A DNA stretch of 64,000 nucleotides from Alphaproteobacteria bacterium. GTDB taxonomy: Bacteria; Pseudomonadota; Alphaproteobacteria; Micropepsales; Micropepsaceae. Below, piece after piece: positions 17,499-31,357 of this stretch. The notes below the pieces were generated by a model. The model saw only the letters and a program-made list of their open reading frames with translations, did no database searches and was not told the DNA's origin. The number at the start of each line of letters is the position of its first letter. Positions within the stretch are counted from its first letter, which is position 1. The DNA is taken from contig CANIHD010000014.1 of NCBI GenBank assembly GCA_947467345.1, positions 19,156-83,155 on the forward strand. Reading direction: 5' to 3'. The translations under genes and the position numbers were made by a program.

Positions 17499-18850
17499 CC
17501 CCGTGCACTGTTCAAATTGACCGCCGCGCCGCGTGCGGCGTTTTCGAGCGCGGCCGCGACATTTTCCGTACGTGCTTTATCCCAGCCGCCGAAGGCGGCA
17601 TTGTCGTGATATTTGGAACGAATTTCGGATTCCGGCAGCGGCTCATGCGCCCCGCCCCGCATATGGGCTTTGCGGATCTCGCGCACGCTGCCGTCTTTCA
17701 GGACGGCGCGGATATGGCCGGTGAAATTCTTCGGATAGGGATTGCCCGGATCGATGACGTAAGAAATCTTCGCCATCAACGCACGCAACACGGGATCCTT
17801 CACGCGTTCATCCGTGAATTGACCAAATCCGGCGCGGCCGTCGACAAAGCCCACCGCAATGCAATAGGGCGTCGAGAATTTCCCGGCGTAGCCGTTGGGC
17901 GGCGATTGCTTCAGCGCCAGCGGCGCCCAGAGCCGATGCACTGTACCCTCGCCCACTTCGCATTCCATGCTGACAATGTCGTCCGCCCGCACGCCTGAGG
18001 CGGCCAGTTGAATAGCGCAGTCGATAAAGGGTTGCGTCATGGTTCCGCAGGCATAGGGCTTGAACGCCAGCGTTTCGGTGACCCAGGTTTTGCCGAGCCC
18101 ATCCAGCAGCGGCGCGAAATCCGGCTTACGTGACGGCGCAAACGCGCGGTAAAAACCGTGTTCGCCTTCCAGTACCGTGGCGGGACCGGTGAATCCGCCT
18201 TCGGCCAGAAGCGCGGCGCGCAATCCCGATTGCGCGGCAGCGCCGGCGTGCAATCTCTTGGTCCAAGTGCCGTCCGCAAGATATTCGATGATGCCGGAAG
18301 CAAGGCTGCCTGAAATGCCGATGGCATTGGCGGTTTGCGCCGGATCGAAATTCAAAGCGGTGGCGACAGCGACCGCCGCTGCCGGCGCGCCGATCACTGC
18401 GGTGGGATGGAAACAGGCTTTGTGAATGGCCTGCGGCGTTACCAGGCTCATGCGGCACATGATTTCGACACCGGCGGCAATGCCCAGCATCACCGCTTCA
18501 CCGGAAAGCCTACGCTGTTCGGCAATCGCAAGAACCGCCGGAACAATGACTGCACCGGCATGCACAGGACCGCCTTCAAACGTGTCGTCGTAATCTTCAC
18601 CGTGCGCGGCAGTGCCATTGATGAGCGCCGCATCGTAAGGCGAGAAACCACCGGCGTGACCGATCGCCGTGGCGCGGCCTTCAGTGAGGGCGCTCTTCAT
18701 CGAGGCCTGGATGTAATCGCTGTTGCGCGCTGCGACGCAGAGCCCGGCAACATCGAACAGAAGATTGTGGATGGTCGCCTGAACCGGCGCCGGCAGGCCG
18801 CCACTTTTTAGCCCGGCGGCAAAACAGCCGAGGTCTTCACTGACAGTCAC
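17495..18850 (-). CDS. MmgE/PrpD family protein
   Basis: GHAGGFSPYDAALINGTAAHGEDYDDTFEGGPVHAGAVIVPAVLA; GTG start overlaps tctA stop (GTGA). Confidence 0.92.
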   Translation of the reverse strand: MTVSEDLGCFAAGLKSGGLPAPVQATIHNLLFDVAGLCVAARNSDYIQASMKSALTEGRATAIGHAGGFSPYDAALINGTAAHGEDYDDTFEGGPVHAGAVIVPAVLAIAEQRRLSGEAVMLGIAAGVEIMCRMSLVTPQAIHKACFHPTAVIGAPAAAVAVATALNFDPAQTANAIGISGSLASGIIEYLADGTWTKRLHAGAAAQSGLRAALLAEGGFTGPATVLEGEHGFYRAFAPSRKPDFAPLLDGLGKTWVTETLAFKPYACGTMTQPFIDCAIQLAASGVRADDIVSMECEVGEGTVHRLWAPLALKQSPPNGYAGKFSTPYCIAVGFVDGRAGFGQFTDERVKDPVLRALMAKISYVIDPGNPYPKNFTGHIRAVLKDGSVREIRKAHMRGGAHEPLPESEIRSKYHDNAAFGGWDKARTENVAAALENAARGAAVNLNSARG

Positions 18851-20337
18851 GTAGATACCTTTCGTTTGGATGTGGCGTCGCGCCATTCGCGCACCAACGC
18901 TCCCACCACAATGAGAGAGGCGGCAACCAGGAAGCCAATAGCAATAGGATCTTCAAGGAAAATTCCGATGTCGCCGCCGGAAAGCTGCAGCGAGCGGCGA
19001 TAATTGGATTCCACCAGCTCGCCGAGCACGAGCCCGAGCACCGCAGGTAAGAAGGGAAAACCGAAACTGCGTAAGAGATAACCGACAAGCCCCGCGGCGA
19101 GCACTAATCCGACATCGAACAACGCCATGTTCAAGGTGAAGATGCCGGAGACGACAAGCGCGAATATAAAAGCCGCGAGATAAGGACGCGGCCGGTTCAC
19201 CAGCCACAAACACACCGGCAGAATGAGAAAGCCGACGGCCAATTGCGCAATAGTTGCAACCAGCGATCCGACATAGAGCCCGCCGATGACATCGGTGTTT
19301 TCCTCGAACAAACGCGGGCCCGGCAAAAGTCCATGAATGAGTAGCCCGCCCAAAAGCACCGCCGCTGAATTCGAACCCGGAATGCCGAAACTGAGAAGCG
19401 GAATAAGCGCCGTACTGGCCACCGTGTTGTTCGCGGTTTCGGGCGCGGCAACGCCCTCTTCGGCGCCCTTGCCGAAACGCTCGGGATTTTTCGACCAGCG
19501 CTTCGCTTCGTTATAGGCGAGGAATGATGCGATGGCGCCGCCGCCGCCGGGCGTCAGCCCTTCCAGCGTGCCGAAGACGCAGCCAATGGCTTGCGCCGGC
19601 CATAGTTTTTTCATCATGGCGAAATTCGGCAGGCGCAAACGAATTTCCTGGCGACCGATTTCAGTGCCGCTGGTGCCCGAGCGTGTCATCAACTCGCTGA
19701 CTGCGAACAGGCCGACCATGGCGAAGATGGGAGCAACACCATCCAACAGATCGGCTGTGCCGAACGTAAAGCGGCTGACGCCATCGACGGGATCGGTGCC
19801 GATAGTTGCCACCATCATGCCGAGCACGGCGGCGATGCAGCCTTTCAGCAGCGACTTGCCAGAGAGCGAAGCAATGACGGAAAGGCCGAGAATCCCCAGC
19901 GCGCAATAGGTCGTAGGCCGAAACAATAAAGCGATACGCGATAAAGGTTCGGTCAGCGTCATCAACATGAGAAGGCCGAAAAGACTTCCGATGACACCAG
20001 ACCAAAGCGAAATGCCCAAGGCTTCGCCCGCGCGGCCCTGCCGCTTCATCTCGTAGCCATCGAGAACAGTGGCGGCAGCAGAATTGGTGCCGGGCGTGCG
20101 CACAAGAATGGCCGGAATGGAGCCGCCATATTCAGCGCCGATATAGCAGGTGGCGAGCATGACAATCGCCATCGACGGTTCGAGCGTGTAGGTGAACGGC
20201 AGCAGCAGCGCCATGGTGATGGAGGCCGAAAGCCCCGGCATGGCGCCGCCAAGAATGCCCCACACCAAGCCGCCGATGGCGACAAACACGAGCGGCGTCG
20301 ACACCAGCATTTGCAGGCCGTGGAGAAATTCGTTCAT
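18847..20337 (-). CDS. tctA: Tripartite tricarboxylate transporter permease, TctA family
   Basis: GGAMPGLSASITMALLLPFTYTLEPSMAIVMLATCYIGAEYGGSIPAILVRTPGTNSAAATVLDGYEMKRQG. Confidence 0.95.
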   Translation of the reverse strand: MNEFLHGLQMLVSTPLVFVAIGGLVWGILGGAMPGLSASITMALLLPFTYTLEPSMAIVMLATCYIGAEYGGSIPAILVRTPGTNSAAATVLDGYEMKRQGRAGEALGISLWSGVIGSLFGLLMLMTLTEPLSRIALLFRPTTYCALGILGLSVIASLSGKSLLKGCIAAVLGMMVATIGTDPVDGVSRFTFGTADLLDGVAPIFAMVGLFAVSELMTRSGTSGTEIGRQEIRLRLPNFAMMKKLWPAQAIGCVFGTLEGLTPGGGGAIASFLAYNEAKRWSKNPERFGKGAEEGVAAPETANNTVASTALIPLLSFGIPGSNSAAVLLGGLLIHGLLPGPRLFEENTDVIGGLYVGSLVATIAQLAVGFLILPVCLWLVNRPRPYLAAFIFALVVSGIFTLNMALFDVGLVLAAGLVGYLLRSFGFPFLPAVLGLVLGELVESNYRRSLQLSGGDIGIFLEDPIAIGFLVAASLIVVGALVREWRDATSKRKVST

Positions 20338-20822
20338 AGCCGGAACTCGCTGAACATACTGGGCAGCAACACGCCGTCCGGCTGCGGAATGCCGAGCGCC
20401 TGCACGAAGAGAAGCCAGAAGATCGCGGCGCCGCCAGCGGCCACCGCGAAGAGGCGCCAGCTCACGCGCGCGCCTTCATAGGCTGCGATCGCTACAACGA
20501 GCAGAAAAATCGCGGGCACGTAACCCAGCGCATAGGCAGCAGGGACGTAAAGTGCGCCGACAAGAAGAAGGCCGAAGGCGCGCAAAGTTGACGCTTCTTT
20601 TTCCTTGTCGTCTTCAATTTCGGGCGCCGCGACCGGTGCAGCAAGAAGCGCGCGCGCGCCAAGGCCAATTGCCAGTAAGGCGAGAAGAATCGACAGCACA
20701 TTGGGAAGTCCACGCGGCCCGATATCATCAGACAATGTGGTTGTCGGTATGTCGGTTGTCGCCCAATAATAAAGGCTGGCAACAAGCAGCAGCACGGCGC
20801 TGGCGACCAGATCCTTACGCAC
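20334..20822 (-). CDS. tctB: Tripartite tricarboxylate transporter TctB family protein
   Basis: Four predicted TM segments, DDIGPRGLPNVLSILLALLAIGLG; overlaps tctA start. Confidence 0.88.
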   Translation of the reverse strand: MRKDLVASAVLLLVASLYYWATTDIPTTTLSDDIGPRGLPNVLSILLALLAIGLGARALLAAPVAAPEIEDDKEKEASTLRAFGLLLVGALYVPAAYALGYVPAIFLLVVAIAAYEGARVSWRLFAVAAGGAAIFWLLFVQALGIPQPDGVLLPSMFSEFRL

Positions 20823-20841
20823 CCGCCAAATTCCTTTCCGC

Positions 20842-21822
20842 TTACCGAATAACGCCGTTCTGTTTCAGGAACTGCGTCGTGTTGTCGGCGAACTTGGCAA
20901 TGAACGGTGCGTAGCGATCATGCGCCATGTAGTTCGGGATCAACGCTTCGTTTTCATAGGCGCGTTTGTAGTCCGGATCGGCGAGAACGCGCTGTGCCGC
21001 CTGCTCCCAGATGGCGATGATATTGGCCGGCATGCCCTTCGGCCCGGCTAGGCCGCGGAATTTCTCCATCACTACCGGATAGCCGAGATCCTTGATGGTG
21101 GGCACGTCAGGGAAGGACGGCAGGCGCGCCGGATTGAAGGTGGCAAGCACGCGAATTTTATTGCCCTGCAATTGCGCGCGTGTTTCGGCGATTTCGCCGA
21201 CGCCGATATCGAGCGTGCCGTTGAGCACGTTGATCATCAGATCGCCGCCGCCTTCATGGCTGACGATGGCGGCATTGACCTTCGCTTGACGTTTCAATTC
21301 TTCCGCCGCCTGACGTTCCAGCGAGGCCGGATTGGCGGCACCCCAACGGCCGCGCGCAGTCTTGGCCTTGTAGATGACATCTTTCATCGTACGGAAGGGA
21401 CCGTCGGCGCGCGTATAGACGATTTCGGAATCGGTGAAGAGATTCACCACCGGTTCAAGGTCACGAAACGTATGCGGCGTGCGCGACATCAACGAGGCGT
21501 AAATATAAGTGGGCGTCGTCGCGTAGAGGATGCTGCCATCCGGTTTGCCGGCAGCCACGCGTGTAATCGAGCGGGCGCCGCTGCCTCCCGTGACGTTCTC
21601 TATGATGAACGTTGCGTTTATATATTTGCGCAAATGCCGGATTAATTCCCGCAAGAACACATCGCTGCCGCCGCCTGGGGACGAATGGGTGACCAGCGTG
21701 ACGACGCGGTGCGGATAGGCGACAGGCGCCGGGGCCGCCGCAAGTGCGGAAGCCGAAATGGCCGGCCCGGACAGCACGGCCCCGAGAGCGAGGCCACCAA
21801 AGCTACGCCGGTTCATATCCAT
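20842..21822 (-). CDS. tctC: Tripartite tricarboxylate transporter substrate-binding protein (Bug/TctC)
   Basis: YPHRVVTLVTHSSPGGGSDVFLRELIRHL; DVPTIKDLGYPVVMEKFRGLAGPKGMPANIIAIWEQA. Confidence 0.92.
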   Translation of the reverse strand: MDMNRRSFGGLALGAVLSGPAISASALAAAPAPVAYPHRVVTLVTHSSPGGGSDVFLRELIRHLRKYINATFIIENVTGGSGARSITRVAAGKPDGSILYATTPTYIYASLMSRTPHTFRDLEPVVNLFTDSEIVYTRADGPFRTMKDVIYKAKTARGRWGAANPASLERQAAEELKRQAKVNAAIVSHEGGGDLMINVLNGTLDIGVGEIAETRAQLQGNKIRVLATFNPARLPSFPDVPTIKDLGYPVVMEKFRGLAGPKGMPANIIAIWEQAAQRVLADPDYKRAYENEALIPNYMAHDRYAPFIAKFADNTTQFLKQNGVIR

Positions 21823-22033
21823 CGCAGATAGGTTCCCAAAAAAATGCGGCCCGAGATTTAAGGCCTACAGCCTAGCAAATATTGGAGGATTTGTCCGAGC
21901 CGCTCGTTTCGTCCCCCGACATCCGTAAATTTTGCGGGCCGCATTTAGAGCATACTTAATCCCGGTATTTTACATGAGATGCAAGACGACGTGATCTGGC
22001 CGCCAATCCTCGCACATTCAGCCCAAGGACCCC

Positions 22034-23869
22034 ATGACCGACCCGCGTACGGACTCCGGCAATGAGCGGCGACGCGCCAAAAGGCAGGACGCCCAACCCG
22101 GAATATTGGAAGCCGCGCGGCGCCTCCTTGAGACGCGCGAGGCCGCGGACCTGACCTTGGAAGAGGTGGCGGCCGAGGCCGGCATCGATCTGAAAACGAT
22201 GACCGAGCTTTACCGCAACAAGAACGAATTGGTGGTGTCGCTGGCGGCGGACGAACTCACCGGCGTGGCGCGGCAAATGTATTCCGGTAATGCCGATGAC
22301 GGCGAGTGGCTGACTGCATCCTCGGGCGCATTGGGCCTGTTGCGTACCGCCAAGAAAGTATTGGGTCTGGCCGGCGAAGGCGAAGTGGGCGAAGCCGCTC
22401 CACCGGTGTTTGGAAAACGGCCGCCGCGTGAATTCTCGTTGCAAGAGAACGAAGACGTGATGCGGCTCGAAGACCGCATCGAGGCGGTAGAAAACTTTCT
22501 CGCTGAAAACAGGAATGAGAGCGACCGGAGCGGCGCCAACGCCTCGGTCCTGGTCGATGAAAGCGTCGCCAATCTCAATGCACGTTTGAACGCAATGGAA
22601 GCCCGCCAGAACGAGGCAGTGGCATCCTTACATAAGAGCGTGGTCGAATTGGGAACGCGCTTGCGACTGGTGGAAGCTTTGCCGCCGTCGCCAGTTGCGG
22701 TGGCTGAAGCGCATCAACAGGCGCAGCAGCAGATCTCCGTGCCGATCGTAACGCCGCTGGTGACGACGATCGCGGCACCGGCAAAAGCCCCGATAGAGCC
22801 GACATTCGACTTAAGCGCCGCGAACGAAGCGGACACGCATGATTTGTTTTTTGACGCAGAGCTGCGCGAGGCCGGCGAGATTGCGGATGAGGCATCAGGC
22901 GAAACGGCATCGGCGGCCGAGATCCGCGTGCGCCGAACCGACATGCCATATGAAGGCTTCCTGGCAGCAGCGCGCCGCGCCGCCAATGAAGCCGCCGCGC
23001 ACCACAATTCACTGCGCGAAAAAGATTCGAAATACGCACTGGCCGTGAAGCGCGCCTATTTGTCGTTCTTCGGTAAGCGGGCGGGTGACCGTAAACGTCT
23101 GCAGATGCTTGGCGCTGCCACGATTTGCTTTGCCGGCGTCGCTACTGCCGTTGTGCTCACAATGCCGCCGCAACAAAGGCCGCAAACCGCGGCGGTCGCG
23201 CCGAAGATTACGAGTGAAATCCGCCCCGTCAACATCAATGCGCCGGAAATGGCGCAATTGGTGGAGCTGGCGACCGCCGGCAATGCCAAAGCGGAAACGC
23301 TGATCGGCCTGCATTATCTCCGAGGCGAAGGCGTGGCCCACGACGATGGCAAAGCCTTTTATTGGTTCGAGCGCGCAGCGCAATCGAACCAAGCCGTCGC
23401 GCAATATTGGCTTGCCAATCTGCATAGCCGTCCCGGCGGCGCCTTTATGGATTCCGCGCAGTCCGTGCGCTGGAATCTGACGGCGGCGAAGAACGGCAAT
23501 CGGATGGCGATGAACGATCTCGCGGTGGCTTACGCGCAAGGCGCGGGCGTTCCTTTGGATATGCGCCAGGCTGCCAATTGGTTCGAGCAGGCGGCGAAGC
23601 ACGGTCACGCCGTGGCGCAGTTCAACCTTGCCGTTCTGTATGAACGCGGCGACGGCGTGAACCAGAGCTTCGACGAGGCGTATAAATGGTACGCGGTCGC
23701 AGCACGCGCAGGCGATGAAGAAGCCGCCAAACGGCTTGAGATATTGGGTGGGAGCCTCGGCCCCGCCGCGCTGCAAGCGGCACAAGAGGCGGCTGAGCAG
23801 TTCGCACCGGTGCCGCTCGACCGCGCCGCGAACATCGAACCCACGCTGGCGGAACTCCGCGGCACGTAG
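22034..23869 (+). CDS. TetR-like HTH / coiled-coil / transmembrane / Sel1-repeat fusion protein
   Basis: GILEAARRLLETREAADLTLEEVAAEAGIDLKTMTELYRNKNELV (TetR HTH); TM LGAATICFAGVATAVVLTM; Sel1 repeats KAFYWFERAAQSN..AQYWLANL and QAANWFEQAAKHGHAVAQFNLAVLYERGDGV. Confidence 0.85.
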   Translation: MTDPRTDSGNERRRAKRQDAQPGILEAARRLLETREAADLTLEEVAAEAGIDLKTMTELYRNKNELVVSLAADELTGVARQMYSGNADDGEWLTASSGALGLLRTAKKVLGLAGEGEVGEAAPPVFGKRPPREFSLQENEDVMRLEDRIEAVENFLAENRNESDRSGANASVLVDESVANLNARLNAMEARQNEAVASLHKSVVELGTRLRLVEALPPSPVAVAEAHQQAQQQISVPIVTPLVTTIAAPAKAPIEPTFDLSAANEADTHDLFFDAELREAGEIADEASGETASAAEIRVRRTDMPYEGFLAAARRAANEAAAHHNSLREKDSKYALAVKRAYLSFFGKRAGDRKRLQMLGAATICFAGVATAVVLTMPPQQRPQTAAVAPKITSEIRPVNINAPEMAQLVELATAGNAKAETLIGLHYLRGEGVAHDDGKAFYWFERAAQSNQAVAQYWLANLHSRPGGAFMDSAQSVRWNLTAAKNGNRMAMNDLAVAYAQGAGVPLDMRQAANWFEQAAKHGHAVAQFNLAVLYERGDGVNQSFDEAYKWYAVAARAGDEEAAKRLEILGGSLGPAALQAAQEAAEQFAPVPLDRAANIEPTLAELRGT

Positions 23870-23933: not shown

Positions 23934-24033
23934 TGTCATGGCCCGCAACAGCGGGCCATCCAGGTGATCATAAACTCTATTGCTCACGCCGACGCGTGAG
24001 CGCTGGATGGCCCGGTCAAGCCGGGCCATGACA
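23934..24033. repeat. Palindromic intergenic repeat, family B copy 1
   Basis: TGTCATGGCCCGC...CGGGCCATGACA ends with internal palindromes; reverse complement closely matches 31213 copy. Confidence 0.8.
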
Positions 24034-24103: not shown

Positions 24104-25390
24104 CTAATCCTGCGCTGAACCCAGGCGCAAAGCAGGCGCGCCGGACGGCGGCGCGACTTTAGGGGCAATGACTGTCGGAGCAATTGCAGGCTTGGCCACC
24201 GACGCTTTCGGGGCCACTGGGGCTGCCGAAACGGAAACCGTCGTCGGGGCCGCATCTGCGATGAGGCGAGCGTCGGGATAACCCAGCGCCTGTACGCGCG
24301 CGAGAATGGCAGGGACGTTGTCGCTCTCTTTCAGCGGCCCAATGCGCACGCGGTGGAAGACCACGCCATCGCGCTCGGCCTCCGTTGAAGTGGCGCCGAG
24401 TGCGTTCAATTTTCCGAGTGCGCGACCCGCGGAGTCTTCCGACGAAAAAGCACCGACTTGCACGAAAATGGCGCCACCACGCGGCACCGCCACACGCGGC
24501 GCCAGAGGGCGCTCCGGAGCGACGGCTATTTGCGTATGAGCGGCGATAGCCGGTCCGACGATGTTTGCGGGCGGCTGCGTTGCGACGGCCGGCGTGGCAA
24601 CAGCCTGCGTCGTTTCGGGGGCCGCCGCGACAGGCTGCAGCGCCGGAGTAGGCGGGTTTACTGCGGGCGCGGCCGGGGCCGGCGCGGGCAAACGGGCTTG
24701 AACGATCGGCGCAGGTGGCGCGACGGCAACGACAGGCTCCGGTGCCGGTGTTACAGCCGGTGTGACGGGAACAGCGGCGGCCAATTGCGGTCGTGGCTGT
24801 TGCGCTGTGGCGCTGGCGCGCAGTTTACGAACCAGCGCTAAATTCTGTGCCACGCGCGGGTGATCTGCCCCCGCGGGGCTGGCCCGGAGCAACAACGCTT
24901 CGGCTTCATCGAGCTTGCCGGCCTGCAATTGCGCCATGGCGAAATTGTTCAGAATCGCCGGATCGTCCACCTTCATCGCGAGAGCGCGCTGAAAGGCCAT
25001 CTCGGCATGCGGATAATCTTCTGACTGCGCGTAAGCGACGCCTTGCGCGGAATAGGTGTTCGCGTCGGGCTGCAATTCGAGCGATCGCTGCAGGAACGCC
25101 AGAGCATCATTCGTCGCGCCCTTGTCGAGCAGCACCTTGCCGTATTCGCTGAGTACGCGCGGATCGTCCGGCAACGCGAGAACAAGCTGGCTGAGCGTGC
25201 GCGTTGCCGATTCAAAATCGCGGTTCATGCGCTGCTTCTGCGCGGCCTTCAGCATAGCATCGATATCGACGGGCGCATCGATGTCGAGACGCTTGGGCAG
25301 CGCCGCTACATCTTGGTCTGGCTGCGTAGCGCAGGCGCTAAGCGCCAACGCGCATAGAAATGCGCTTTGTTTCAAACCATGAAATCGCAT
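24104..25390 (-). CDS. Tetratricopeptide-repeat lipoprotein with C-terminal SPOR domain
   Basis: Lipobox LSACATQ; TPR region (DDPRVLSEYGKVLLDKGATNDALAFLQRSLELQPDANTYSAQGVAYAQSEDYPHAEMAFQRAL); SPOR IFVQVGAFSSEDSAGRALGKLNALG...RVRIGPLKESDNVPAILARVQALGYPDARLI. Confidence 0.9.
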   Translation of the reverse strand: MRFHGLKQSAFLCALALSACATQPDQDVAALPKRLDIDAPVDIDAMLKAAQKQRMNRDFESATRTLSQLVLALPDDPRVLSEYGKVLLDKGATNDALAFLQRSLELQPDANTYSAQGVAYAQSEDYPHAEMAFQRALAMKVDDPAILNNFAMAQLQAGKLDEAEALLLRASPAGADHPRVAQNLALVRKLRASATAQQPRPQLAAAVPVTPAVTPAPEPVVAVAPPAPIVQARLPAPAPAAPAVNPPTPALQPVAAAPETTQAVATPAVATQPPANIVGPAIAAHTQIAVAPERPLAPRVAVPRGGAIFVQVGAFSSEDSAGRALGKLNALGATSTEAERDGVVFHRVRIGPLKESDNVPAILARVQALGYPDARLIADAAPTTVSVSAAPVAPKASVAKPAIAPTVIAPKVAPPSGAPALRLGSAQD

Positions 25391-31212: not shown

Positions 31213-31357
31213 TGTCATGGCCCGGCTTGACCGGGCCATCCAGCGCTCACGCGTCCGCGTGAGCAATAGAACCTACGATCGCCTGGATGGCCTCGCCAGC
31301 GTGCTTCGCACGCAGATCAATGATTGGCGCGCAAAGCGCGCCGGGCGGGCCATAACA
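31213..31357. repeat. Palindromic intergenic repeat, family B copy 2 (inverted relative to copy 1, with inserted hairpin)
   Basis: tgtcatggcccggcttgaccgggccatccagcgctcacgcgtccgcgtgagcaatagaacctacgatcgcctggatggcc... Confidence 0.8.

Follow-up and report, generated by a model that had tools for sequence, protein, structure and literature searches.

A TetR-type helix-turn-helix joined to a PodJ-like, predicted membrane protein in one alphaproteobacterial family

The window, a stretch of 64,000 nucleotides from an alphaproteobacterial genome (G000), carries a gene whose product joins an N-terminal TetR-type helix-turn-helix (HTH) domain to a helical middle region, a single predicted transmembrane helix and C-terminal Sel1 repeats (Table 1). 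The reading frame was intact, and direct reading of the sequence agreed with the coordinates and strand given in an initial annotation made from the letters alone. The convergent gene for a TPR-SPOR lipoprotein, also named in that annotation, was confirmed. Within the genus, the lipoprotein gene and the window gene or its homologue, a PodJ paralogue (see below), converge in five genomes: G000, G002, G004, G005, and G001, where a Sel1 fragment lies at a contig end. In G001, the Sel1 repeats of the locus are cut by the ends of two contigs (L188 and L074) and the HTH-Sel1 join is frameshifted at the contig end, probably representing one gene split in assembly. Divergent upstream of the window gene, positions 18847-21822 hold a tripartite tricarboxylate transporter-like set (TctC-, TctB- and TctA-like by eye), which also adjoins the G004 homologue.

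Table 1 Features of the locus, with positions in the window and residues of the encoded protein.
Feature	Position	Strand	Basis
Shine-Dalgarno-like AAGGA, 4 nt 5' of the ATG	22025..22029	+	Read directly
TetR_N-helical region-TM-Sel1 protein, whole gene, 611 aa	22034..23869	+	Pfam, AlphaFold, ORF read
TetR-type HTH domain, residues 1-84 (TetR_N at 24-68; recognition helix 53-59)	22034..22285	+	Pfam, AlphaFold, Foldseek
Helix, residues 89-110, probable remnant of TetR C-terminal domain	22298..22363	+	Alignment with stand-alone TetR near podJ; AlphaFold helix
Long helices, probable coiled coil, residues 140-232	22451..22729	+	AlphaFold, alignments
Pro/Ala/acid-rich linker, low confidence, residues 233-305	22730..22948	+	AlphaFold
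Conserved FLAAARRAA motif N-terminal to the membrane helix, residues 310-322	22961..22999	+	Sequence comparison
Single transmembrane helix, residues 353-377, basic residues on N-terminal side	23090..23164	+	Hydropathy, AlphaFold
Sel1-repeat solenoid, predicted periplasmic, residues 404-589	23243..23800	+	Pfam, AlphaFold, Foldseek, profile search
TPR-SPOR lipoprotein gene, convergent with the window gene	24104..25390	-	Pfam, locus comparison

The N-terminus scored 27.6 bits with the Pfam family TetR_N, whose curated cut-off is 24, and 30.5 bits when the N-terminal fragment was used as the query. This was the best HTH match, and HTH_25, HTH_3 and HTH_31 all scored far under their cut-offs in the window protein. 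The whole-protein AlphaFold model, built from an alignment of eight sequences, placed HTH helices at residues 6-34, 42-49, 53-59 and 63-83, with pLDDT values of ~75-92 over the block, falling to 59-60 where the last helix ends. Modelled separately, the N-terminal 112 residues reached a pLDDT of 86.5, and the best 50 Foldseek matches of this model in the PDB were all TetR-family regulators with a probability of 1.00 (best E-value 0.0018, none below 0.001). The initial annotation had read a TetR HTH here and suggested structure prediction as a check, and the predicted structures indeed contain one. A chance match was ruled out by the curated cut-off, the fold, a profile search and the recurrence of the domain in homologues.

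The net charge of the window HTH is -2 over 58 residues, while stand-alone TetRs average +3.4, and the domain has Thr where TetR proteins typically have the Tyr of the recognition helix. Its TetR_N score was the second-weakest among the first eight homologues examined, and in the HTH tree it sits on a long branch. Because the domain is acidic and the usual Tyr is missing, DNA binding by the window copy is only putative.

Residues 85-112 align with the stretch directly after the HTH in stand-alone TetRs, and the helix at 89-110 probably marks a fusion junction at about residue 112-120. The all-helical C-terminal ligand and dimerisation domain of TetR proteins is absent from both the model and the alignment; the remnant helix is followed by long helices, the membrane helix and the Sel1 repeats. 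Pfam and AlphaFold thus bore out the annotated order of coil, membrane helix and Sel1 repeats, the coil being the helical middle region and probable as such. The one hydrophobic segment of the protein (Kyte-Doolittle 2.0) spans residues 359-377, slightly later than the 355-375 first proposed, and the AlphaFold helix spans 353-375. The Lys/Arg-rich stretch before it predicts a topology with the HTH inside and the Sel1 repeats outside. Three Sel1 repeats were matched in Pfam (86.3 bits), the solenoid block was modelled with pLDDT values mostly of 88-98, and Foldseek searches with the full-length model returned Sel1 proteins. A peptidoglycan-binding domain had no Pfam match in the window protein or in its family's long PodJ-like paralogue.

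A search of 96 genomes of the window's family (f1), together with locus retrieval, yielded 41 HTH-bearing homologues, the window protein included. At E ≤ 0.01, Pfam assigned TetR_N to 40 of them and Sel1 to all 41, and in the PDB a profile of the 41 matched structures of both TetR proteins (E about 1e-13) and Sel1 proteins. The fusion recurs, with every row from f1. Since many genomes share the architecture, G462 in a single contig among them, and the window gene is intact, a gene-fusion or assembly artefact was ruled out. Across 61 genomes, the C-terminal half was matched nearly everywhere and the N-terminal part was joined to it only in f1; a scan of genome contigs gave Sel1 matches only. 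A wide distribution of the fusion was also ruled out, as none of the matches listed from 386 genomes of the class spanned the HTH outside f1.

The genomes with the fused protein also encode a longer PodJ-like protein, which in the window genome is L058 on contig G000:C7. The window protein is 42% identical to L058 over residues 366-607 (the membrane helix and Sel1 part), and its C-terminal half is 42-49% identical to the long PodJ-like proteins of f1. Both proteins have AARRAA before the membrane helix, where the FLAAARRAA of the window protein resembles YISAARRAA in the paralogue. At the position of the HTH, L058 starts instead with PWNVMGIPPEAREAAR, and it has an N-terminal P-W-x-V-x-G-I motif that is shared with L051 and L192-L195 and absent from the window protein. 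Long proteins from other families of the class carry similar N-terminal motifs. These comparisons and the phylogeny support the view that the window protein has the C-terminal half of a paralogue of the f1 PodJ-like protein in which the N-terminal motif was swapped for a TetR HTH. This is close to one reading in the initial annotation, which had likened the layout to PodJ-like polarity factors carrying an extra HTH. The N-termini of L058, L051, L192, L193, L194 and L195 follow a PW(S/N)VxGIxPxAREx...ARRxGxxLGxWL-type pattern with no Pfam match above cut-off. The pattern looks ribbon-helix-helix-like, and a FitA-like_RHH match (E = 0.07) was seen in the related L050 only.

In a tree of the C-terminal parts, a branch with 81/92 support separates the fused lineage, HTH-less members included, from the rest. 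The HTH changes state about five times on this tree, interpreted here as a single gain and about four losses; the gain probably occurred once in an ancestor within f1, although this is not strongly supported. In G461, G463 and G420, all genomes of one to three contigs, no frame of the stretch taken showed an HTH and the rest of the gene was kept. G462 retains the HTH beside the HTH-less G461 and G463, and G002, from the same genus as the window genome, has a homologue without it.

The closest relative of the window HTH and its remnant helix in the window genome is a stand-alone TetR encoded ~6 kb from podJ. The window HTH scored 56.5 bits with a profile of stand-alone TetRs (most of them near podJ) versus 37.8 bits with other TetRs of these genomes. 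Most fused HTHs group with podJ-linked TetRs (98/87) in the HTH tree, which is short and poorly resolved. About half of them, the window's included, clearly favour the podJ-linked profile; the scores of the others were ambiguous, and we do not claim this descent for all.

In ten close homologue pairs, some of which share sequences and none of which includes the window protein, the HTH had a dN/dS of 0.08-0.22. The Sel1 part had comparable or higher ratios, and those of the linkers were usually higher. These ratios indicate that the HTH is under purifying selection in all ten pairs. At the positions that contact DNA in TetR structures, the phosphate-contact residue was Lys or Arg in 39 of the 41 fused HTHs, and the first recognition-helix contact was Arg in 27. 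The position of the recognition-helix Tyr held Tyr in 21/41, Arg in 12/41 and Phe in 5/41. The HTH fold is thus kept and under selection in the family, with DNA binding a putative property of the window copy.

Searches of upstream DNA gave no operator candidate. Only 6-bp palindromes were found before the window gene, no operator-like k-mer common to the promoters of 33 fused genes stood clearly above shuffle level, and conserved upstream blocks were found between close pairs only. One motif, CGAATCAYNTATSATG, lies directly 5' of the stand-alone TetR gene near podJ (G000:C7:65796-65811, L197; L069:3797; L062:1837), and its L062 copy is an imperfect inverted repeat, GAATCA-N4-TGATTC. Allowing up to one mismatch, it occurred once per genome in five of eight genomes and in none of the other three. 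It is possibly an auto-operator or -10 element of the stand-alone TetR; being absent 5' of the fused genes, it was rejected as their operator.

The fused protein shares features with several known systems. PodJ of Caulobacter, which recruits PleC, combines coiled coils, a disordered region, a transmembrane helix and periplasmic repeats (PMC8980812). The window protein resembles it in the helical or coiled cytoplasmic region, single membrane helix and periplasmic TPR/Sel1-type repeats (all predicted), the AARRAA before the membrane helix and a C-terminal part homologous to that of the PodJ-like protein in its own genome. It differs in having a TetR HTH instead of the PWNVxGIPPEARE-type motif, a shorter coil and no Pfam peptidoglycan-binding domain. 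Like the TetR repressors EthR, MexZ and TtgR, it has an N-terminal HTH, by sequence and fold, followed by a helix; unlike them, it lacks the ligand-binding and dimerisation domain, is predicted to be membrane-anchored and is missing the recognition-helix Tyr. RodZ has an HTH of the Cro/C1 type. The window protein is like RodZ in its predicted cytoplasmic HTH, single membrane helix and periplasmic domain, but its HTH is TetR-type, its periplasmic part is Sel1, and no sequence relation was found.

Transmembrane transcription regulators form a common class, defined as having both a DNA-binding domain and a transmembrane region (PMC10269533). With a predicted DNA-binding domain and at least one transmembrane helix, the window protein fits this definition. 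Its predicted layout of cytoplasmic HTH, one membrane helix and periplasmic domain is that of the ToxR/CadC/TcpP class, from which it differs in HTH type, long coiled spacer and Sel1 solenoid. The CadC/ToxR-like reading of the initial annotation thus holds for the layout, but the window HTH has lost typical contact features. In the mostly open-access literature searched, we found no description of a fusion of TetR_N with Sel1 or with a protein of the PodJ type. Membrane-anchored HTH proteins are already known; the TetR-Sel1 combination, the PodJ ancestry and the history of gain and loss appear to be new.

With moderate confidence, we regard the family as membrane-tethered DNA-binding proteins, regulators or anchors, built on a PodJ chassis, and this is our most likely reading. 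In a PodJ-type scaffold paralogue, the first ~115 residues of a TetR regulator would have taken the place of the original N-terminus. The coiled coil would provide dimerisation in place of the missing ligand domain, the basic residues before the membrane helix would hold the HTH in the cytoplasm, and the periplasmic Sel1 solenoid would bind a partner at the envelope or pole. Held at the membrane, the HTH dimer would bind DNA, so that a single promoter or a few promoters could be controlled by the state of the envelope or pole, or a DNA site could be kept at the pole. That the same fusion is under selection in dozens of related species suggests that it may link cell-envelope events to DNA. More tentatively, the protein may be a cell-pole scaffold turned DNA-binding, whose PodJ chassis positions the HTH and couples the local envelope state to a promoter or locus, so that transcription or DNA anchoring would be under spatial control. 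If the HTH does bind DNA, the scaffold may set the cellular place of a regulator or anchor, a point relevant to the question of why some regulators remain membrane-bound.

Several observations count against DNA binding: Tyr is present in just 21 of the 41 HTHs, the window HTH is acidic, the HTH has been lost repeatedly, no shared operator-like motif was found upstream of the fused genes and CGAATCAYNTATSATG is absent there. The missing hallmark Tyr in about half of the members, the acidic window copy and the lineages that dispense with the HTH also suit the main rival, a possible but less favoured spatial scaffold in which the HTH fold has ceased to bind DNA and instead docks a cytoskeletal, polarity or signalling protein in the cytoplasm. 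RodZ, with a cytoplasmic HTH, one membrane helix and a periplasmic domain, provides the precedent: MreB is the target of its cytoplasmic domain (PMC6052060), showing that an HTH anchored in the membrane can work on another protein. PodJ, from which the chassis of the fused protein derives, is itself a protein scaffold and recruits PleC (PMC8980812). However, the basic phosphate-contact residue is kept in nearly all members, the recognition helices are basic and subfamily-specific, and no partner is known. The natural losses, G461 and G463 against the HTH-keeping G462, allow a direct test of what the HTH contributes to this polarity-type scaffold, which apparently gained a DNA-binding-type head once, under selection in dozens of species and lost in others.

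A sub-case of the DNA-binding reading, in which the HTH holds a DNA locus at the membrane or pole and has no transcriptional role, seems improbable. PodJ ancestry favours such an anchor, as does a PopZ homologue in the window genome, where a polar system therefore probably exists; among 14 control genomes, the PopZ family matched only Caulobacter. On the other hand, the position of the fused gene is not kept between the two main genera. In four of the genomes looked at in the other genus, it lies near genes for an FTR1-like iron permease and a cupredoxin-like protein (L042, L045, L046 and L047; named by eye).

It is similarly improbable that the HTH is decaying in the window species with little function, leaving only the coil, membrane helix and Sel1 part to matter: the weak TetR_N score, long branch, acidic surface and HTH-less G002 of the same genus fit such decay, but the fold model is confident, the reading frame is intact and the HTH was under purifying selection in all ten pairs, which did not include the window protein.

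Between the two convergent genes of the window, positions 23934-24033 contain nested inverted repeats, TGTCATGGCCCG/CGGGCCATGACA and CGGGCCATCCAG/CTGGATGGCCCG. A 31-bp part of these repeats has an exact copy on the opposite strand at 31214-31244, and by their sequence the repeats are a dispersed REP/MITE-like element.
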